Shown piece after piece: positions 4,430-63,828 of a stretch of DNA of 64,000 nt. This stretch comes from Xanthostigma xanthostigma (Eukaryota; Arthropoda; Insecta; Raphidioptera; Raphidiidae). A program made the position numbers and the translations under genes. The DNA lies in the NCBI GenBank assembly GCA_963575645.1, contig OY754472.1, forward strand, positions 2,728,001 through 2,792,000, written 5' to 3'. A model generated the notes under the pieces. That model saw only the letters and a list, made by a program, of their open reading frames with translations, did no database searches and was not told the origin of the DNA. Each line of letters starts with the position of its first letter. Within the stretch, counting starts at the first letter, position 1.

Positions 4430-4760
4430 AGTGAAACTTTTATTCTATCGCCCCGAATTTTTCTGGCCGTCCGTTGCATGTCGCATTACAGGCGGCCGCG
4501 GAGTAGGGGCAAAGCTAAAGGCGTTCGGAGTAGGCGCTCAGTAGAGCAGCCAAGGCCAATATGGCGGCGCCCATGGTTACCATCAGCTGACCGTGTAGTA
4601 TGTATAACACATAGTCAGCCTGTCATGCGGGCAAGTGCTGTACAGTGTTTACATGTTTTTATTCGTGTATTCATGTGAATATTGTTGTTTATAATTAATC
4701 GTGATGGATAAGTGTCTACAATCCAACGCCTATACAATCCAATAAAAGTTTCACTTGCGT
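4430..4760. mobile_element. Probable MITE with AGTGAAACTTTTATT ends
   Basis: AGTGAAACTTTTATTCTAT at the left is mirrored by AATAAAAGTTTCACT at the right, ~330 bp apart. The interior is GC-rich (GGCGGCCGCGGAGTAGG). No second copy here. Confidence 0.5.
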
Positions 4761-5446
4761 CGTGGTTTCTTAAAACCACACAATTTTTCGGATGTTGGGC
4801 TTATTTGGGGGTGTAATTAAGGTATATTCAGTGAAAAACTAAATTTAACATTTACAGAATTTTGGAAAATCTTAATGTCCATTCAGGTCAAAAAACTTAT
4901 TTTTTGCGATTATCACTAGTATAGGATGTTTAGTTACTTTTTAAGTATAATTAGTAAAAATTAAAATAAATATCCGCACAATGCATCATGAGAATGCGTA
5001 ACAACATTAAAAAATAGCTGTGCCAAGAAATTGAATGGCAACCAAATCAATTTTTCTTTATTAATATATTATAATATGACCAAAATTCAAATTTCATTAG
5101 AAAAATCGATGGGTAAAGATCGAGCCAAATCGGAATCTTGTACTCTATGAAGCAGTTCACTTTTTGGACACTTTGATTTAATACACCCCTGGTGATTGAA
5201 GTAAAGAAATTATATCTAACAGAGTTCATTTGTTACAAAACAAAACATTAGCTATCATATTATTCAGGTTGAATGTAACGCTTTATTTACGCGGTTTTTG
5301 TCTCATTGACGGTGCGCGACGAGATTGGTCATAACTCATAGACAGCGTCTTAACTCTTTTTCTTGAAGACTCGAAGTCTCAAATTGCCACTGTCCACCAG
5401 ACGCAATGTTTGGGGTTGAAAATGAAATAAATAGAATAAGCCGTTA

Positions 5447-16700: not shown

Positions 16701-17700
16701 AAGCTTTTATTCATGTGAAATGCACTAACTTGATATACTCATATTAGCGTTGTGAAAACACAACCTCAGGTAGCTCAATTGGTAGAGCATATGACTATCA
16801 ATATCAGGGTCGTGGGTTCGAGACCCATTTTGGGCGAATATGTTTTTATTTTCTACATTGCTTTCTTCTAAGGATTACATTTAAATTTATTTAATTAATT
16901 AAAAAAAAATTATTAGTTAAGGAAAGTGTTTAAATACTGATTTTTATCAACAAAAACTTTTGAACGGTAACTCCGATCATCATGAAATTTGGACACAACA
17001 TTCATCTCGGTAAACTAAGATGAATGTGTGTACTCATGTTCCTCCCTTCCCCATCTGTTCTTTTACACCCGGGTGAAATCGGACAGGACCGCTAGTGTAT
17101 TAATAAATCTTAGTTTTGCACCCGGGTGAAACCGGGACGGACGTCTAGTTCATAATAAAAAATTAATACAAAACAATGAGTACCTTTAATGGTAATTCTT
17201 CTTTGTTGAGCAGATTCTTTTCCCTGTTTAGAATCTTCCACTTTAATGTTTGCATTCGAATTCCGCGAAATGATCGTAATATTTTCCCCGCAGCGACCGA
17301 TAATTCTTCCCACAGCGCTTGCCGGAACCCACATTTCTCCCGTTTCCATCGGCGGTACGCTTGCAATTAGATTTTCTATTTCTATTTCGGCGCTTCGGAC
17401 CGAATCCGGATTGCCTTTGACGATACAAGTTCTGATCTTTTCGTCTGTGACGTCGTCATCGAAATTAATTGTCGCTCCGGTTTTATCCTGCAATTCTTTT
17501 AACTTCAGGCCTCCTCTACCAATCACCGTTGGAACTAATACTTTAGGTATATGAATTTCTTTTTCCTGGTAATTTGCTGAGCTGACATTCGAGAAGTCGT
17601 CTTCGTGTTTGAAGAGCAAATACACCAAATAGCCACCTAAGCCCGCAAGTGAAAGGCTTAAGGCGATTGGAATCAAAAGAGGTCGAACGTTCGATGGCAT
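13743..17700 (-). CDS. papi: Papi / TDRKH: tudor and KH domain-containing protein, 3 coding exons, 640 aa
   Basis: Coding exons are 17700-17184, 15751-15474 and 14870-13743, all with GT-AG junctions and matching phase (K-G-T-P-E-Q across the first, G-P-K-A-T-Q across the second). A hydrophobic anchor spans about residues 8-30. KH1 (about 47-114) has the GRGG loop at 61-64, and KH2 (about 119-190) has GRCG at 135-138. A Tudor domain (about 290-350; KWYRAEIVDI, YFLDYGDSEFV) is followed by the extended-Tudor part. The last ~180 residues are Ser/Asn/Thr-rich and low in complexity. The order anchor-KH-KH-Tudor is diagnostic of Papi/TDRKH, a mitochondrial outer-membrane scaffold. It binds methylarginine of PIWI proteins and assists piRNA 3'-end trimming. 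At 640 aa it is somewhat longer than what I recall for fly and human (about 560-580), through the tail. Intron 2 holds a hAT MITE. Confidence 0.93.
14940..15445 (+). mobile_element. hAT-type MITE in papi intron 2, 506 bp
   Basis: Terminal inverted repeats TAGTGATGTGCCGGAT / CCGGCACATCACTA are flanked by the perfect 8-bp duplication GTTAAAAC (14932-14939 and 15446-15453). No transposase. It fills nearly all of the ~600-bp intron and ends 28 bp from the donor of the upstream exon. Confidence 0.9.
16490..17148 (+). repeat. Dispersed repeat (GAAGAGTTTG family) with tRNA-like insert
   Basis: The left part runs to ~16697, an insertion bears the tRNA-like sequence, and the right part resumes at ~16953. 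A second copy of the terminal CACCCGGGTGAAACCGGGAC block follows. Intron 1 of papi. Confidence 0.6.
16770..16843 (+). pseudogene. tRNA-Lys-like pseudogene or tRNA-derived SINE head
   Basis: A good A box (TAGCTCAATTGGTAGAGC) and a perfect B box (GGTTCGAGACC) sit at tRNA spacing. The variable loop, T stem and 3' end (GGGTCGTGGG, TTGGGCG) resemble tRNA-Lys. The anticodon stem is broken (TATGA against TATCA) and the loop would read ATC, so it is not a working tRNA-Lys. It lies in a ~250-bp insertion inside a dispersed repeat copy (16490-17148). Confidence 0.5.
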
Positions 17701-22703: not shown

Positions 22704-23357
22704 TTTTGACGTGATAACGTCTTATAAATTGATGAATCACCAATCTTATAAATTGATAAAACACCGGCTGCATGCACGAAAAAGTGTAACGTTCCTAACG
22801 TTCGTAACGCGTAACGTTCCGCCTGACCCTGTGCGTGCTTTTTGCTAATTTCTCGCTCAATTTAAATCAGATCGGTTTGAAACCAGTCTTAAACGAAAGA
22901 GAAGAACATTTTACATAGATTTCGTATAACAGAATTTGCCTAAACAGTTTTTTTATACAAATTTATATAGAAAAATAGCTGTATAAATGCAATGTTGTCT
23001 AATGCATGGCGCGACGCGGTCGGTCGTCTTTGTTTGCCGTACATGGAAATTAGAAGATAACGTATGTCTTGTCTTAACATGAAAACGGCTGCATTTCTAA
23101 TGTTTAATTCAATTTTTTGACATTAGTATTTTGTGAAATGCAACGCCTTCTAAGTTAAGTATTGGAATAACTAATTATTATTAGAACATAATACTTTGAC
23201 AGTTGCAAACGTCACTTTTGACATTTCTTATCATTCCGACACCAAGGATAAGCGGATTGAAACCAAATTTTGGGAGGTTTAGGTTATGTATTACGGAATA
23301 CGTTATCACGTAAAACTATCGTCCGTAAACCGACTTTACAGACAACCAATTTTTTTT
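22704..23357 (+). mobile_element. MITE (GACGTGATAACG family), 650-bp copy
   Basis: Near-identical to the inverted copy at 25648-26207, but retains ~85-100 bp (around GCATGGCGCGACGCGGTCGG) missing from that one. Confidence 0.8.
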
Positions 23358-24577
23358 TTTTATTTAAATTACGTGCTCAGCAACTTTGGCTATATGCACG
23401 AAAAGTTGTTGAAATACAACCACTCATATACATAGGTAAGTACCTACTAAAATATAAATATGGAAATAAAAAGGTAAGTAATAATAATAGTTTGCATAAT
23501 ATTGATAAATAGGGTATTAAGTAATCATTTTCGAATTGATACATCTATATTTTTAATGATTTCTCAATGTAAACTTTGAACCCCCGTTACACCCTTTAAG
23601 GGGTTGAATTTTGAAATATTCGTTCCTAGCGGATGTCTATACGTCATAATAACTATCTGCGTGCCAAATTTCAGCCCAATCCGTCCAGTGGTTTGAGCTG
23701 TGCGTTGATAGATCAGTCAGTCATATCGGCAACACTCGGCATTTACCGTAAACAATTCACCGTAACGTAAAATAAAGCAAAACGGAATGCTAAAAATTTT
23801 AAATAAAAATATTATTTTGAAACGGAGGCGTTTGCAATTTCGTCAGTACTATTCCACGACAAAAAATATCTTTGCAAAATAAATAAATTCGTTCGTTTTC
23901 ACAAATCAATTCGAATCACTGCCGTTCGTGGCACGCATTGACTCAATAATCCAAGTTGATAAAAGAGCATCAGCTGGGTCTCAACAAAACAGTTGAATAT
24001 CGTTGTTTGGTGTATGTAGACTATGCACGCAATTGTTTTGTGAACTCGGTTTTAAACATTTTTCTACTGCATTGTAAATGACAGAATCATTGAGTTTGAA
24101 AATTTTGTGTTGTGATTTATTTTTGTTGAAAAATATTTGTGTGAACAATTTCAACAGTTGTTATTTTGATCAGTTTCAATAATTTTTGAAATTATACAAA
24201 CTGTACCAAGACTTTGTAAATTAAGGTGAGAAATATATCTATTTTAATAATAATTGATTAACACACTTCAACCTTCTTAATTTAATAATTATATGCTTAG
24301 ATTATAACCTTCTGAATAAACAGCTAAAGGTCTTGAAGCGTGACATTTGAAAAATTGAAATTGCAAATGCAAATTGTAGTATTTAACGTTTGCACCCGAC
24401 AGCTGACTTTATCAACACGTGTAAATAACAATAACAATTCGACTTTAGATTAGCTCTTGGTAACTGTAAATTTTCTGTGAGAGTTTTCTTTTCAAATCTT
24501 TGATTAACGTCTGAATAGAACTCTTCAAATAAATAAAATTGTCGACCAATTTTTCTCAGACTATATTATATTGACAA

Positions 24578-24820
24578 TAAAATATTTTTAACAAAAAAAT
24601 TGAACCGACTTCAAAATATGCACTAAAAAGTAAAAAATAATAATTATTGTTATTTTTGGAGTCGGTGTCACATCGGAATTCGAAAGTAGCAATTTAAATC
24701 TTACATGTCTCTAGTTCTCGGAATAGATTTCACCGACTTCAAAAATAACAATAATTATTATTTTTTACTTTTTAGTGCATATTTTGAAGTCGGTTCAATT
24801 TTTTTGTTAAAAATATTTTA
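24578..24820. repeat. Long near-perfect foldback around GAACCGACTTCAAAA
   Basis: Two arms of about 90 bp (AATTGAACCGACTTCAAAAT near 24598; the complement ending near 24800) flank a ~60-bp centre. The downstream 24840-24960 sequence and the hammerhead-like motif at 24991 may belong to the same unit. Confidence 0.75.
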
Positions 24821-24990
24821 TTTTTCTCTTTTTAGTGTTAGATAAAGTATTGCAATATGGGTAGGCCAAGTATGCGTGCCTTTGAAAATTGAGAGTTTCC
24901 CTCGATTTTTCCGGATTCCACCATCAGATCCTGAGTTGGTTCCGATGGTTAAATTAATAAAAAATAATATAAATCAATATAACAAAAGAT

Positions 24991-25022
24991 GACGTTTCGA
25001 TCCGGATTTGGATCTTCTTCAG
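24991..25022 (-). ncRNA. Hammerhead-ribozyme-like motif
   Basis: Read 5' to 3' on the minus strand: CTGAAGA, then A, a GATCC/GGATC stem with an AAATCC loop, GAAA, and CGTC. This matches the hammerhead core CUGANGA - stem II - GAAA - (short stem III) NUH. Minimal hammerheads of this shape are known from Penelope-like retroelements. Stem I pairing is poor, so activity is uncertain. A truncated relative sharing AAATCCGGATCGAAACGTC lies on the plus strand at about 45529-45547. Confidence 0.5.
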
Positions 25023-25647
25023 AAATATCTAAAAAAATATAAAAATTAATTAATATTTCAGTTGCGGAAAAAAATTTGATGATAAGTTTGCTCCAAAAAT
25101 TTCAATCAATTTATAGGCATTATAAATATTTGTCTGGAAACTTTTGAAAGTCTGAATTTTTTGAAAACAAATTCCAGTAAAAAAGTGGACATTACTTATG
25201 TTGTTAATTTTCTCAGTTAAGCAAAATATATTTAAAAATTTATCGCACAATCTCAGTTTCATATCTATCTATCTTCTATCTATAATTTAGGGCGTTTTTT
25301 TAATTTATTATTTTTCGGTCCCATTGGCTAATGTTGTTTAATTAGGTAACTAGATTTTAAATGCCGACTTTTAAAATTAAGTTTGTTATTCTGACATGTT
25401 AATTTAATAATTTCAAACGAATATTACTTAACAGGGGTGGCAGTAAAAAAAATGTCCTACAAAACTAGCTTATTTTTTAAAGATCTTTTCAACAATACCA
25501 CTTTCGACCTATCGTGCCATTTAACATTCCGGAGCAAACTAACAGGAAAGCCGACCTTTCAGGGGGGAAAAAAGATCGCCATTCGATTCTTCATTAGGGC
25601 TTTTATAATACAGATTTTTGACACAACTCTCTATGACTAACCGTTTT

Positions 25648-26207
25648 CGAAAAAAATTGGTTGTCTGTAAAGTCGGTTTACGGACGATAGTTTTACGTGA
25701 TAACGTATTCCGTAATACATAACCTAAACCTCCCAAAATTTGGTTTCAATCCGCTTATCCTTGGTGTCGGAATGATAAGAAATGTCAAAAGTGACGTTTG
25801 CAACTGTCAAAGTATTATGTTCTAATAATAATTAGTTATTCCAATACTTAACTTAGAAGGCGTTGCATTTCACAAAATACTAATGTCAAAAAATTGAATC
25901 AAACATTAGAAATGCAGCCGTTTTCATGTTGCATTTATACAGCTATTTTTCTATATAAATTTGTATAAAAAAACTGTTTAGGCAAATTCTGTTATACGAA
26001 ATCTATGTAAAATGTTCTCCTCTTTCGTTTAAGACTGGTTTCAAACCGATCTGATTTAAATTGAGCGAGAAATTAGCAAAAAGCACGCACAGGGTCAGGC
26101 GGAACGTTACGCGTTACGAACGTTACACTTTTTCGTGCATGCAGCCGGTGTTTTATCAATTTATAAGATTGGTGATTCATCAATTTATAAGACGTTATCA
26201 CGTCAAA
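25648..26207 (-). mobile_element. MITE (GACGTGATAACG family), inverted 560-bp copy
   Basis: Inverted partner of 22704-23357, with an internal deletion next to AACATGAAAACGG. Confidence 0.8.
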
Positions 26208-27184
26208 AAACGACCGATACGGGTGGTCTGACTCATTCTGTATATGGATGATTTTTCCCTCCTCCATTAGTTAGCGAACGATTGAAATTTAAAATTTCAA
26301 ACCTGTTTTGTGCACTTTTTTGACCTATTGATAACTTCGTTTGTAATTCGATAGTGCTGATAAAAATCTATTATAAATAATTTTATATGAATAAATAAAT
26401 TATTTCGTACTGTGGAAGTTGGACTGTGAGCATCATCATGATTTGTTAATGTTCAATTTCACATTCGACAATGAAATTTTTACCCATGTAGGTATCACAT
26501 TTATCAAACGGATACCTATTTATGTGTTCTGAAACCGTAAATAAACTATCTGTTATTTCGATAATAGATATATCACTTTCGATATAAGTTATTTAAAGCT
26601 GTGCTATCCCAAGGACAACAATCAGTTGAAAATCAAAGCCGTTTGAAGAAATAAAACGAATTTTTAAATTTTGAAGTTAATTTGACCCTTGTTAAGCGCG
26701 TCGTATGTGGTAATAATCCGTAGTTAATAATTTTATATGGAAATTTTGTATCCAAGGTTCAATTTTTATACTGGACTACCTATAACAATGAAGAGATAAA
26801 AACATTCCTAATATACCTAGACAATTTTGCCGTTGAATCTCAAAGCTGATATTTTATCTTACTTTGGACAGAAAGAGAGAGAGAGAAAGAAAGAAGGTTG
26901 CACTATTCAAAAAGGTGCTTGGCAGACTACAATATTATCGAATGGAACTTTATTATTCCGACAAAACTTTTCCATATTTGCATAAAACAGTTCATTGGCT
27001 TTAACCATCAAAAACAAATAATATACAAATTATTTTTTATATTGTCTACTATAAGCTTTCTGGAACCTATATATTTTAAGTCTAACATCCACATAAATAA
27101 TAATGTTCATTTGTTCAAAATTTTCCGAAAATTCGTCACCAATTTTGTGAATGAAAATCGCTCCTGGGTCTATTGGTATTTTTA

Positions 27185-27830
27185 ATCCGAGTGTGTAGGC
27201 TTTCACGGCCGGTGTTGATTCAAATCTTCTTGGTTTCCGGGCTTGTATGCCGTGGTCCATTGGTATTTCTACCTGACGTTTCGTCTACAACTGCGGTCAG
27301 CGTTGACAGACGTCCCGATTTTTAAATCAAAATTAAATGTTCCGCGCGGGACAGACTCAGTCCCGCTTTTCGGCTTTTTGTTATCTATATTGTCACGTAA
27401 ACGTAATTTTAATTCAAATAAAAAGATAAATATTTGAAAACTTCTGATTATATACGTTTTTTTATTATGTCCCGCTTTCGACGAAAGAATCCCGCTGTTT
27501 TCACTCAAAGAGTTCCAAAATCCCGATTTGGCAAAAAAAAAACTGGCAACACTGACTGCGGTAGACATTATCAAAGGCGACGTGGTAGCGGGCGAAGTGT
27601 CCTTCTAGGCTGCTCACAGGTAAATGTGTCGACTTCCGTCTTTTATGGTCAACGTGCTCGTGTTCTCTACTCGGTCGTAGTATGCTCTTCTGTGATTGGT
27701 CGTTCGATTCAGTGGGTTGGTATTGCACAGTGCTGGTTTTACTTAGATTCAAACCTTCATCTTTGCGGTTAAAAAGGATTTTTAATTACGGCATACAAAC
27801 CCGGAAACCAAGAAGATTTGGTATTTTTAA
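27185..27830 (+). repeat. Foldback repeat (CTTGGTTTCC family), interrupted copy
   Basis: Outer arms contain TCTTCTTGGTTTCCGGG and CCCGGAAACCAAGAAGA; inner blocks carry ACATTATCAAAG and GTGTCGAC. A second copy lies at 62985-63365. This copy is split by the 257-bp hAT MITE. Confidence 0.65.
27298..27554 (+). mobile_element. hAT-type MITE, 257 bp, inserted in a foldback repeat
   Basis: Ends CAGCGTTGACAG and CTGGCAACACTG, with perfect 8-bp duplication ACTGCGGT at 27290-27297 and 27555-27562. A related repeat at 63030-63070 keeps the uninterrupted site (CAACTGCGGTAGACATT). Confidence 0.9.
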
Positions 27831-28235
27831 TGTTTTCGTCGCTCTTTAACAGTTTTCGATCACCTGTAGATATCAATAGTTTTAATATTACATATTATAT
27901 TAGTTTTTGTCAAGCTTCTCTCTTAAATATTAGGCGTGACCGCGTAGTAGATAAATTATTATCAAAACTTGTTCAAAATAAGGTCAAAATTCATTGTTTG
28001 ACGCAAACACTATATTTGGAAATCCAATTATACATTCCGAAAACAAATTTATCTACGACAAAATAATATGTCATTTGCGGAAAGTCACCATACTTCTGAA
28101 AACAAAAAAAAAAATAGTAACTGGCATCTTTCCAAAATATAAACGATCAATGAACATTGGCCATGACCTCCAAGACGGGCGTTAAAGCTCTCAAAGTATT
28201 AATTCAACGGTTTTTTTTTAATTTATGTGTTACTA

Positions 28236-28389
28236 GTGGCCCGTCTCTGTTTTACCCGAGTGCGATAGATATAATGTGTTTCGTTTGCGGCCCGGCGTCT
28301 GAGCAAATGCTATACCAGATTTGCTTCTGAACTAATAGCTTTGAGCGAATTCTATCAGATGTCGCTACTTGGTACTAAACAGTTCTTCA
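28236..28389 (-). repeat. Single unit of the 160-bp repeat
   Basis: Reverse copy: CGTTTGCGGCCCGGCGTCTG and CAGATGTCGCTACTTGGTAC. Monomer state, about 18 kb from the array. Confidence 0.8.
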
Positions 28390-28565
28390 GCCAGGTCTTC
28401 GATTTTGTGTTCAGACATTACAAAAGAAGTGTTACACAAATTTTCACGCTACCTCAAATATCTACCCAAAAATATTTGATAGATCTCCTACTATAAAAAA
28501 TAATAATTTAATAAAAATCAGAGGAATAGGATCAGGAAATCAGTCAAAACTTTATGCTTACTCGC

Positions 28566-28596
28566 GACGTTTCGGCTTTAATTAAGCCTTCCTCAG
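28566..28596 (-). ncRNA. Hammerhead-like motif, left arm of foldback
   Basis: On the minus strand: CTGAGGA, A, stem GGCTT/AAGCC around AATTA, GAAA, CGTC. It forms one arm of the palindrome at 28503-28735; the other arm carries a second copy in the opposite orientation. Confidence 0.45.
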
Positions 28597-28628
28597 CCGT
28601 TCTGAAAACACATGTATTTTCAGAACGC

Positions 28629-28661
28629 CTGAGGAATTGGCTTAATAAAAGCCGAAACGTC
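28629..28661 (+). ncRNA. Hammerhead-like motif, right arm of foldback
   Basis: On the plus strand: CTGAGGA, ATT, stem GGCTT/AAGCC, GAAA, CGTC. Three outer pairs (CGC before the core, GCG after the cleavage triplet) could start stem I. The extra two bases before stem II would weaken it compared with the left-arm copy. Confidence 0.4.
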
Positions 28662-28777
28662 GCGAGTAAGCATGAAATTTTGACTGAATTCCTGATCCTA
28701 TTTCTGATTTTTATTAAATTATTTACATCATCAAGGATCTTAAATAGTATCACAAATAAAAAATAATTTCAAAAACT

Positions 28778-29010
28778 AAAACCCGACTACTGGAAAGTAT
28801 GACACAAGAAAATATTCTCATCTGAGGATAGCCGTGGTCATATGCCACCTACCCTAAAAAACATTACGGGAGCATAAGCTCTACAGGGCAAAGTGCATCA
28901 CGCTATACACCTATAAAGGGACCTCATATTATATATGAGATGGCATACGACCACGGCTATCCTCATATGAGAATATTTTCTTGTTTCATACTTTTCAGTA
29001 GTCGGGTTTT
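28778..29010. repeat. Foldback element, 233 bp
   Basis: Inverted arms begin AAAACCCGACTACTGGAAAG and end CTTTTCAGTAGTCGGGTTTT. The paired inner blocks are GAGGATAGCCGTGGTCATAT and its complement. The central ~70 bp are unpaired. No coding. Confidence 0.75.
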
Positions 29011-44700: not shown

Positions 44701-47700
44701 TTAGTGATGTGTCGCTTTTGAGCGAGTCGTTCATAATGAACGAGTCCTTTCTCGGAGCGGAGCGAGCCGCTCTTGTTTTGTTGTGAATGACTCACTCCGA
44801 GCGCCATTGCTCTGTGCTGAGCTGTTCTGTACTGTTGCATTCGCACATTTACAGAGCGCACACAGCGCAGGCCACAGAGGCACTAGTAAATTTTGCACGT
44901 GCAGAGTTACCTTTGCTGAGTCATTTAATGTTGAATGACACACTGCAAGTGTAATAGTACTAAGCATTACAGTGACTTAAACCATTCACATTGACGTCGT
45001 TGACAAAGATATAATATTGTAACAATAAACATTATTATTGTTAAGCTTTTGTTATACTTTATAGTTTATCCGAAATGCGAATAATATATTAAGATCAGAA
45101 TCATTGAAATGAGCTCAGAACTGAGTGTGTATTGTGTTGTGCAATGCTTCGTGACAGTTCACATCTCTGCAGTCTGCACTCTTGTGTAGTGCGTACTGTC
45201 TAGTGTCGCTCCTTTGAACGACTCGCTCTGTGCAACTCTTTTTAGTGAGCGAAGCACACGGGGCCAGCTCCCATTAAAGAGTCATGTGGACATATCACTA
45301 CTTCCTATGCTTGCCGTGTTTCGAGATGGATCGTTTTCTGGCGCACGCGAGATGGCGCTGTTATCACTAGCTGGGAAAACTTCGGTTCTTTCCGCCTGTT
45401 TTCGCTATAGTTACCAAAGTTGTTTGACTTCACGGATACTACACACATTCGATTGTCGTTTCACGAACTTCTTTGTCGAGTTTGTAGCAAATATTATATT
45501 CCAAATCTTTGATTAACGTCGGAATTACAAATCCGGATCGAAACGTCATCTAGTGAAATATTGATTTACTAGAGAGACCTGTGCGAATTATTCGCACTAA
45601 ATAAGTATAATAATTATCACTTTACAAAATTATTTTTTAAATATGATTGCAGGTATTCAATTCGTTTATAATTTTGCACACTGCTTATAACGTTCTTCTT
45701 TTTGTTGTATTACAATATGAAGCTCAGATGACAGATCGAAGAAATATTTTACTAAAATTGTCATATAGAGGCGCAAGTAGCAAAAGCGTTGAGCTAAGCC
45801 GTCAGATGGCATCATGCAGCATTGCTGTGACGTTGTTCAGCGTTGCTCGCTGTTTCAAAATTAAAGCCATCAGATGGCAGTATGCAGTATTGTGTCTGTT
45901 GTATTACAATATGAAGGTCAGATGACAGATCGAAGTGTTGACGTTGTTTCAAAATTAAAGCCGTCAGATGGCCGACGTTGTTCAGCGTTGCTGTATTTTA
46001 ATTAATTTACAAAAACAAAAGCAATAATAAATTTTTAAGTTGTCGATATCAGTAGAGCAAGCAATTATCTGTAAAATGATATATAATTTATGTGGAGAAA
46101 TTGTGAGGTTTTTTCTAAAAAGGGAGGCAAACATCTTTAACCTTAGCGTATTAATATATATGATGATAATTTTATTATTTTTTTGTCAATATATAGTCTG
46201 AAAAAAATTGGTTCATAATTTTATTTATTTGAAATATTATATTCCATTATTTATACCCTGAATTTAGCACGAGTCGATTTTTTAACGGAAAATAAATGGT
46301 CGAAAATATCGCGTTATATTCAGGCTAATACGGTCAATACAAATAATAAATACTATAATTAAATAGTATTTGAAATACAAATACTAGAAAAGTATTTATA
46401 TTTTGAAATAATTTTACTCAAATGCTTTATTTTTTCTCATTGCAGACGGTAATGTAACACTAATGGTTAAGCTTCAATTAATTCCGACCGAGGTGGAGCG
46501 TCATACGCTCTCCCAGGACATGGCAAGATTATTGGCATGCGACGAAGACGCCGACACCGTCGTACAGAGCGCGTCGGAAGTTACGTTCAAAGCCCACAGC
46601 AATATCATCAAGAATAGGTCGCCTGTACTTGCGGCTATGCTCAAGGAAACTGGACAGGTACCTACGTTATATATCTTACATTTTATTAACAACTAGCAGA
46701 CCCGGCTGAAATCGACTGTTTTAGTACCAAGTAGCGACATCTGACACAATTCGCTCAAAGCTATTAGTTCAGAAGCAAATCAGGTAGAATTAGCTCAAAG
46801 CAATTAGTTTGGACGCCGGACCGCAAACGAAATATATTTTGCAGAATTGTATTTATCGCACCCGAGTGAAATCGACTGTTTTAGTACCAAATAGCGACAT
46901 CTGAAACAATTCGCTCAAAGCCATTAGTTCAGAAGCAAATCTGGTAGAATTTGTTCAAAGCAATTAGTTTGGACGCCAGACCGCAAACGAAATACATTTT
47001 GCAGAATTATATCTATCGCAGCGGGGTGAAATCGACTGTTTTAGTACCAAGTAGCGACATCTGAAACAATTCATTCAAAGCTATTAGTTCAGAAGCAAAT
47101 CTGGTAGAATTTACTCAAAGCTATTAGTTCATACGCCGCACCGCAAACGAAATACATTTTGCAGAATTGTATCTATCGCACCCGGGTGAAATCGACTGTT
47201 TTAGTACCAAATAGCGACATCTCAAACAATTCGCTCAAAGCTATTAGTTCAGAAACAAATCTGGTAGTATTAACTCAAAGCAATTAGTTCGGACGCCGGG
47301 CCGCAAACGAAATATATTTTGCAGAATTGTATCTATCGCACCCGAGTGAAATCGACTGTTTTAGTACCAAATAGCGGCATCTGACACAATTCGTTCAAAG
47401 CTATTAGTTCAGAAGTAAATCTGGTAGAATTTGGTCAAAGTTATTAGTTCAGACGCCGGGCCGCAAACGAAATATATTTTGCAGAATTGTATCTATCGCA
47501 CCCGAGTGAAATCGACTGTTTTAGTACCAAGTAGCGACATCTCAAACAATTCGCTCAAAGCTATTAGTTCAGAAACAAATCTATTAGTATTAACTCAAAG
47601 CAATTAGTTCGGACGCCGGGCCGCAAACGAAATACATTTTGCAGAATTGTATCTATCGCACCCGAGTGAAACCGACTGTTTTAGTACCAAGTAGCGACAT

Positions 47701-62984: not shown

Positions 62985-63365
62985 AAACTTCTCGGTTTCC
63001 TGCCTTGTAGGCCGTGGTCCATCGGTATTTCTACCTGATGTTTCGTCTTCAACTGCGGTAGACATTATCAAAGACGATGTGGCTAGGCGATTCAGACGTA
63101 AGTGTGTCAACGACTGGTGTTCTCTCTCTCAGCGTGTTAGTGTTCTCTGCTCGGCTGTAGTTTGCATTACGACCGAATAGAGAACACTTCGACACACTAG
63201 AGCACGCTGAGCAGGGAGAAGGGAGAACACCAGTCGTCGACACACTTACCTGTGAGTCATCTAGAAGGTCACTTCGCCCGCATCACTGTCTTTGATAATG
63301 TCTACCGCTGACCGTCACGCAGAAATGTCGATGGACCACGGGCCTACGACGTCGGAAACCAAGAA
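62985..63365 (+). repeat. Foldback repeat (CTTGGTTTCC family), uninterrupted copy
   Basis: Arms include GGCCGTGGTCCATCGGTATT at the left and its counterpart GATGGACCACGGGCC at the right. Paired GACATTATCAAAGACGATGT and TGTCTTTGATAATGTC lie inside. It serves as the empty-site reference for the insertion at 27298. Confidence 0.7.
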
Positions 63366-63828
63366 TATTTGCAACATCGGGCTACAAACTTGGGTAGACA
63401 TTATTTTTTACGACTATTTTTGCAAACTAAAATAAATTGGACGTTTGATATCATTTTTAACTGTATTTGTTCTAAGTAGTAAAATTAACAAATTAAAAAT
63501 CCAATCTATGCCTCAACAAACAAAAACGCGTGGTTTGTTTGACATTTAGATACAGCGTTCATCATATGTTTTTTTTATTTTTGATAAAGACATTAACAGC
63601 TCTATACTTACCTATGTCAAAGTGTATTATGTTATAAAATTATAATAAATTATTTGCTATAAGTAATATATATTTTTATTGTAAACATTTTTAATGGCAG
63701 TTTTTGACTGACAAACGCTGTTTCATTTTTAATAAATAAATAAAACTAATAATTTTATTGTGACAGAACACCATTAATACAATATAATACTTCAAGACTT
63801 CATTATAACCTCAATTTTTAACTTTTAG

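Follow-up and report, generated by a model that had tools for sequence, protein, structure and literature searches.

What are three sequences that resemble the core of a hammerhead ribozyme doing in a stretch of insect DNA, and why do two of them face each other in the arms of a single palindrome? The stretch in question, hereafter the window, comprises 64,000 nucleotides of the Xanthostigma xanthostigma genome (contig OY754472.1, positions 2,728,001 to 2,792,000), and a first-pass annotation, made from its letters, had proposed that the cores are minimal hammerheads of the kind known from Penelope-like elements (PLEs). Our answer, to which we give a probability of about 0.9, is that the pseudo-long terminal repeats (pLTRs) of at least three PLE families harbour minimal hammerhead-ribozyme-like motifs, of which the cores are examples, and that the palindrome is the product of one insertion event.

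Pattern matching recovers all three cores where, and on the strands on which, they had been reported. One, which belongs to family A, occupies 24991-25022 on the minus strand (CTGAAGAAGATCCAAATCCGGATCGAAACGTC) and reads CUGAAGA plus an A, a GAUCC/GGAUC stem II and GAAACGUC; from its sequence, cleavage is predicted 3' of the C at 24991. The other two belong to family B and sit at 28566-28596 on the minus strand (CTGAGGAAGGCTTAATTAAAGCCGAAACGTC, left arm) and at 28629-28661 on the plus strand (CTGAGGAATTGGCTTAATAAAAGCCGAAACGTC, right arm), stem II of the latter being preceded by three additional nucleotides, AUU. The palindrome that was said to pair them is likewise present, with arms at 28522-28588 and 28639-28705 that are 93% complementary. 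Might all this be a chance resemblance or a low-complexity artefact? The AT-rich background speaks for such an explanation, and nothing else does. The core pattern is matched three times in the window as opposed to not once in 100 dinucleotide shuffles and, across the 623 Mb and 28 contigs of the host assembly, the pattern CTGARGAAN{12,24}GAAACGTC returns 2,528 + 2,611 = 5,139 matches (the two arms of one pair being counted separately) versus 2 + 1 = 3 for the same pattern backwards. These counts refute chance, to which we assign practically no probability. When publications containing CTGAAGA together with GAAACGTC were sought, the titles among the matches listed concerned other subjects.

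What, then, carries the cores? Matching the arms of families A, B and C against 20 fetched regions (one of which, L004, overlaps another, L042) and against the window yielded 29 clusters, 17 of which contain 18 head-to-head pairs with inverted pLTRs that are readable at both ends, the left arm in L040 and L050 consisting of tail only. The pair count leaves out the remaining 12 clusters, namely L031 (complex), L033 (one arm cut), the solo or partial copies in L041, L042 (two), L043, L046 (family C) and L048, and those at 24493, 45502, 59021 and 62985 in the window, as well as a second, partial pair in L032. Note that nine of the 20 regions were picked for a visible head-to-head pair, so that the share of pairs is biased and uninformative on the genome, and that family A and B regions were selected via the core, so that core conservation among them is no proof. 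All 18 pairs carry a tail on exactly one end (34 bp long in families A and C, 35 bp in family B), and duplications of at least 8 bp (8-14 bp) flank 15 of the 18, compared with 28 of 1,041 displaced placements.

Papers are cited here by PMC number and drawn on in excerpt. Penelope in the rotifer Adineta vaga, as the excerpt of PMC3846280 describes it, has head-to-head inverted pLTRs, an optional tail of 31 bp on one of them, duplications of 8-10 bp, 5' truncation and junction palindromes, the last of these attributed to self-priming. The copies seen here share this anatomy. They differ in that their duplications are mostly 12-14 bp long and in that there are thousands of cores, whereas the copy number of the rotifer element is very low (PMC3846280); the word hammerhead occurs 0 times in that paper. 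For an anole PLE, the tail is reported to correspond to the sequence that separates two start sites of reverse transcription (PMC11167929). The head-on arrangement is a common insertion mode of PLEs and not a new device.

Foldbacks of this kind could alternatively be non-autonomous DNA transposons (of the miniature inverted-repeat or foldback type) in whose terminal inverted repeats the hammerhead-like sequence is incidental, and short inverted-repeat elements, target-site duplications and thousands of core matches would all suit that explanation. However, the element ends are unsymmetrical because the tail is one-sided in 18 of 18 pairs, there are single-arm copies that are truncated at the 5' end (L042 and window 24493-25055), the length of the duplication varies from 8 to 14 bp, and the linked open reading frame (ORF), to which we turn below, bears a GIY-YIG signature. 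The one-sided tails together with the 5' truncation led us to reject DNA transposons, which we consider a very improbable source.

A Penelope-like carrier fits what lies upstream of the family A core. In region L042 (C1:765600-775500), positions 4460-4801 encode an open C-terminal ORF of 114 amino acids that contains VVYKISCEDCNMNYIGQTKRALKARVKEHQ and in which motifs follow one another in the order VVYKI..YIGQT..R..EH, which we take to be the GIY-YIG signature. The family A core lies ~190 nt downstream of the stop of this ORF, in the same sense, and the whole copy, whose 5' truncation falls where the endonuclease begins, lies between two copies of the 13-bp sequence TAAAGAAAATAAA. In region L035, a version of this ORF with 96% identity and a single in-frame stop is located inside a head-to-head pair, the two cores of which are separated by 941 bases; a 13-bp duplication flanks the pair. 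The earlier guess that a Penelope is the carrier therefore fits on four counts, since an endonuclease signature, terminal repeats in inverted orientation, a tail on one side and target-site duplications are all present.

Metazoan retrozymes, which are small retroelements with circular RNA and type I hammerheads, should also be considered as carriers, given that they are repetitive and that the many copies, the small size and the type I-like order of the core would be in keeping with them. Yet published retrozymes are described as 150-450 bp tandem repeats with canonical type I hammerheads (PMC7229834, excerpt), whereas the copies that we retrieved stand alone or form inverted pairs, their cores are non-canonical, and two loci include a protein-coding 3' end. 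As the copies seen are not tandem, we rejected a retrozyme origin, which strikes us as highly unlikely.

How hammerhead-like are the cores of these Penelope-like elements? Families A and B have both core boxes, CUGANGA and GAAA, and the two boxes, the GUC site and a compensated stem II all speak for a ribozyme. Core boxes and stem order are those of the canonical type I hammerhead (Rfam RF00163). Minimal type I hammerheads that have no helix III are said to number in the thousands in many animal genomes, with some residing in PLE pLTRs (PMC7761336, excerpt), and the hammerheads of Penelope/Poseidon PLEs, like ours, combine CUGANGA, stem II and GAAA without a monomeric stem III, in a pLTR of a GIY-YIG element (PMC7761336 and PMC11167929, both in excerpt). 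Minimal hammerheads in PLE pLTRs are thus already known, and the window copies add to that kind. They may depart from the published ones, which we know via citing papers, in having 1-3 extra nucleotides before stem II, and they differ in that family C has U3/A8. The primary work on the minimal type I hammerheads of PLEs is reportedly that of Cervera and de la Pena (2014) and Lunse (2017).

Stem II differs in sequence between families without losing its pairing. Among the matches listed, the core families comprise A (GATCC), B (GGCTT) and others, such as D, whose compensated GGAAA/TTTCC stem II occurs at one place among those matches (C1:14055741-14055771, minus strand) and suggests a further family; the foldbacks at 27187 and 62985 form a separate family C by arm matching. 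In one copy per family, stem II pairs at 5/5 positions in A, 5/5 in B, 6/6 in C and 5/5 in D, with unrelated letters in each; in the other two family C copies, read by eye, 5/6 positions are paired.

A number of observations count against a ribozyme-bearing Penelope. As regards the carrier, the match of the L042 ORF to the Pfam GIY-YIG model PF01541 (E 4.3e-4, 21.0 bits) falls under the cut-off of 22.6, and neither PDB nor NCBIfam yields a match to this endonuclease fragment at E values of 1 or less. The ORF is matched in two of the 20 fetched regions (L042 and L035) and nowhere in the window, and the regions examined contain no coding sequence linked to family B or C. The telomerase-related reverse transcriptase that characterizes PLEs likewise went unseen in those regions, and no genome-wide search for it was made. 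Three of the 18 pairs (L036A, L047 and L049) are without a duplication.

As regards the cores, stem II decays within family A. When 68 family A cores were copied from among ~100 places listed, pairs 1 to 5 were intact in 62, 47, 66, 64 and 61 of them, respectively; pair 2 is therefore broken in 21 of the 68, with an A-C mismatch in 14 of 68 copied cores and nine of 33 distinct ones. Compensation is present between families and absent inside family A, the copies of which are probably mostly dead. The claim of a compensated stem II thus holds across four families, which are fully paired with different letters, and fails for the uncompensated changes inside family A; indeed, the first-pass annotation had named stem II mutations without compensation as evidence against its own proposal, and the A-C mismatches at pair 2 are in part just that.

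In each of the three cores, moreover, CUGANGA and stem II are separated by additional nucleotides (A, A and AUU), and the covariance model places an extra nucleotide as an insertion in the 24991 core too. Stem II starts 1 nt late in the A, B, C and D copies tested and 3 nt late in the 28629 copy. According to the excerpt of PMC10085705, hammerhead alignments have at most one or two nucleotides inserted before stem II, a range that tolerates one extra nucleotide and is exceeded by the three of the 28629 copy. Stem I is poor in family A, where 2/4 adjacent pairs form, or 4/4 only if a 4-nt bulge is allowed. The 28566 copy has 2/4 pairs (by eye), while 3/4 form in L050 and in the 28629 copy of family B; family C reaches 4/4, including one G-U, in the 27187 copy and 3/4 in the L046 copy (by eye). 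Stem III is absent from the cores as single molecules, since GAAACGUC leaves no space for it; published PLE hammerheads also lack stem III and may function as dimers (PMC7761336, excerpt).

Covariance searches speak in the same sense. At curated thresholds Rfam finds no hammerhead in the whole window, its sole match being a tRNA at 16764-16836 (32.8 bits). At E up to 10, the 24900-28800 interval returns 12 matches below cut-off, none of them to a hammerhead and the best to microRNA models that fit the long hairpin. With single cores as queries, the only hammerhead match is Hammerhead_1 for the 24991 core, at 12.0 bits relative to a cut-off of 34, and neither the family B stretch 28612-28685 nor the family C stretch 63025-63095 matches any hammerhead. 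The covariance check proposed along with the original reading was thus run and fell short of threshold. The proposal of Penelope-type minimal hammerheads stands as regards the carrier element and only in part as regards catalysis. The cores do not belong to the canonical Rfam hammerhead family, from which they are set apart by the low score, the extra nucleotide after A9, the lack of a stable stem III and, in family A, the poor stem I. "Hammerhead-like" is justified as a label, and as ribozymes the cores are putative.

Family C tells a somewhat different story. Its core reads UUGAUAA in three of the three copies seen (27541-27610, 63021-63100 and L046), which means that C3 and G8 have changed jointly to U3 and A8; because the three copies share ancestry, this represents one event, not three. 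Note that the core was assigned by our own reading, Rfam having returned no hammerhead for 63025-63095. Simple loss of the core would be one way to account for the altered letters. However, natural hammerheads show covariation from C3-G8 to U3-A8, and activity in vitro is reported for ribozymes with this pair (PMC3088659, excerpt), for which reason core loss was dropped. The motif that had been called degenerate at 27277 and 63035 does, then, mark PLE foldbacks, those of family C, while its supposed degeneracy is the paired U3/A8 change; the sequence given for it at 63035, GACGTTTCG, was in error and actually reads GATGTTTCG.

Imagine that the cores are relics, that is, that a hammerhead-like hairpin is kept for some other purpose, for example recognition of the RNA by a protein, and that no self-cleavage occurs here. 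This scenario is a sub-case of the Penelope reading and does not exclude it. Extra nucleotides in every core, the weak stem I of family A, the lack of stem III and the sub-threshold Rfam scores would all be accommodated. There is also a precedent: in the excerpt of PMC11167929, an anole PLE hammerhead cleaved only with protein present, and hammerhead mutants left insertion in vitro by the purified protein unchanged. If the hairpin were all that mattered, however, one would hardly expect CUGANGA, GAAA and the GUC site to be kept among families with different stems, or family C to alter C3 and G8 jointly; both point to the core fold itself. In addition, the same excerpt mentions an earlier case in which a PLE hammerhead self-cleaved in 3-25 mM Mg2+, and the anole hammerhead did cleave when protein was supplied (PMC11167929). 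On balance we regard relics as a serious possibility that falls somewhat short of an even bet. Conversely, the PLE hammerheads described here might constitute a distinct active subtype, marked by an extra nucleotide that separates A9 from stem II and including one U3-A8 family. Its activity would depend on tandem arrangement of the pLTRs in the transcript or on protein, and would be off in head-to-head copies, where a single hairpin would bury both cores; this idea is speculative and in our view unlikely.

How might a Penelope-like element generate a palindrome in a single step? A reverse transcriptase/GIY-YIG protein, supplied by complete copies that we presume to lie elsewhere in the genome, would copy the RNA of the element where an AT-rich site has been cut, and the choice between two start positions would account for the optional ~34-bp tail. 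Self-priming or template switching would then add the second arm in head-to-head inverted orientation, and repair would generate the target-site duplications of 8-14 bp. The palindrome at 28505-28755 would be one such insertion event. The motif, if active at all, would most likely cleave transcripts of tandem pLTRs, either as a dimer or aided by the protein of the element. As RNA, the 28505-28755 foldback is predicted to form a single hairpin of -149 kcal/mol in which both cores are buried, and palindromic copies in general probably hide both cores in this way. The suggestion that transcripts of either strand contain a core is correct as a statement about sequence, although the predicted hairpin would keep the two cores out of reach.

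The window insertions can be described individually as follows. The family B insertion (28505-28755) consists of head-to-head inverted pLTRs, matched by the arms at 28502-28600 (minus) and 28625-28754 (plus), with a 35-bp tail on the right end only (28721-28755, plus strand); it is flanked by the duplication ATAAAAAATAAT at 28493-28504 and 28756-28767, and its boundaries were set from duplication and sequence. A second inverted repeat (28758-28850/28938-29030, 93 nt, 88%) starts within the right-hand duplication. The family A copy that contains the 24991 core spans 24493-25055 on the minus strand and comprises a 5'-truncated pLTR and a 3' tail of 34 bp (24493-24526, minus strand, by tail matching), split by an insert of ~365 bp (~24585-24949); the A arm matches the copy in two collinear blocks (query 1-110 and 94-182). 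The match at 24493-24543 to the pLTR end plus tail is exact (51/51), and no duplication of at least 8 bp was found at the bounds of the copy. The insert carries an inverted repeat of its own (24576-24667/24731-24822, 92 nt, 99%). Around the whole copy there is a larger inverted repeat, 22796-26125, with arms at 23076-23356/25650-25930 (281 nt, 100%) and 22796-22992/25929-26125 (197 nt, 99%), which has the appearance of a recent inversion or element ~3.3 kb long, its arms approaching 0.5 kb. In both families A and B, the CUGANGA box is preceded, at a distance of 5-6 nt, by the end of a sequence (TTTTTTTAG or TGTATTTTCAG) that resembles a 3' splice site, for example at window 25029-25037 (minus) and L050:4954-4964 (plus); introns are described as possible in Penelope elements (PMC3846280, excerpt).

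The first family C insertion (27187-27817) is flanked by the duplication TTGGTATTTTTAAT (27173-27186 and 27818-27831) and, by arm matching, comprises a 34-bp tail (27187-27220), a minus-sense left pLTR and a short right arm at 27788-27817. Its core is split within loop II by an insert of ~250 bp, the bounds of which were placed by eye at ~27303-27557; some 7 bp (ACTGCGG) are repeated at both sides of this insert, again by eye. The second family C foldback, at 62985-63380, is more diverged, has a minus-sense core with U3/A8 at ~63031-63078, and shows no duplication of at least 8 bp. A half motif had been noted at about 45529-45547. It turns out to belong to a family A copy (45502-46231) that begins with an inverted tail on the left, followed by a plus-sense pLTR from mid stem II onwards, which an insert at ~45568-46166 splits (arm matches 45502-45525, minus, and 45528-45567 and 46167-46244, plus). 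By eye, this copy is flanked by the 13-bp duplication AAATATTATATTC (45489-45501 and 46232-46244), which automatic tests with other boundaries missed and which lies outside the count of 15 of 18. As far as seen, the PLE copies in the window are broken and non-coding.

One known kind of mobile element thus accounts for the three cores, the palindrome, the "degenerate" foldback and the half motif. Beyond this locus, the role of PLE hammerheads is called still mysterious in a review (PMC7761336, excerpt). With at least three PLE families that differ in their stems, and with one swap of C3-G8 for U3-A8, this genome offers a natural comparison set that could be used to test for selection for cleavage on PLE hammerheads.

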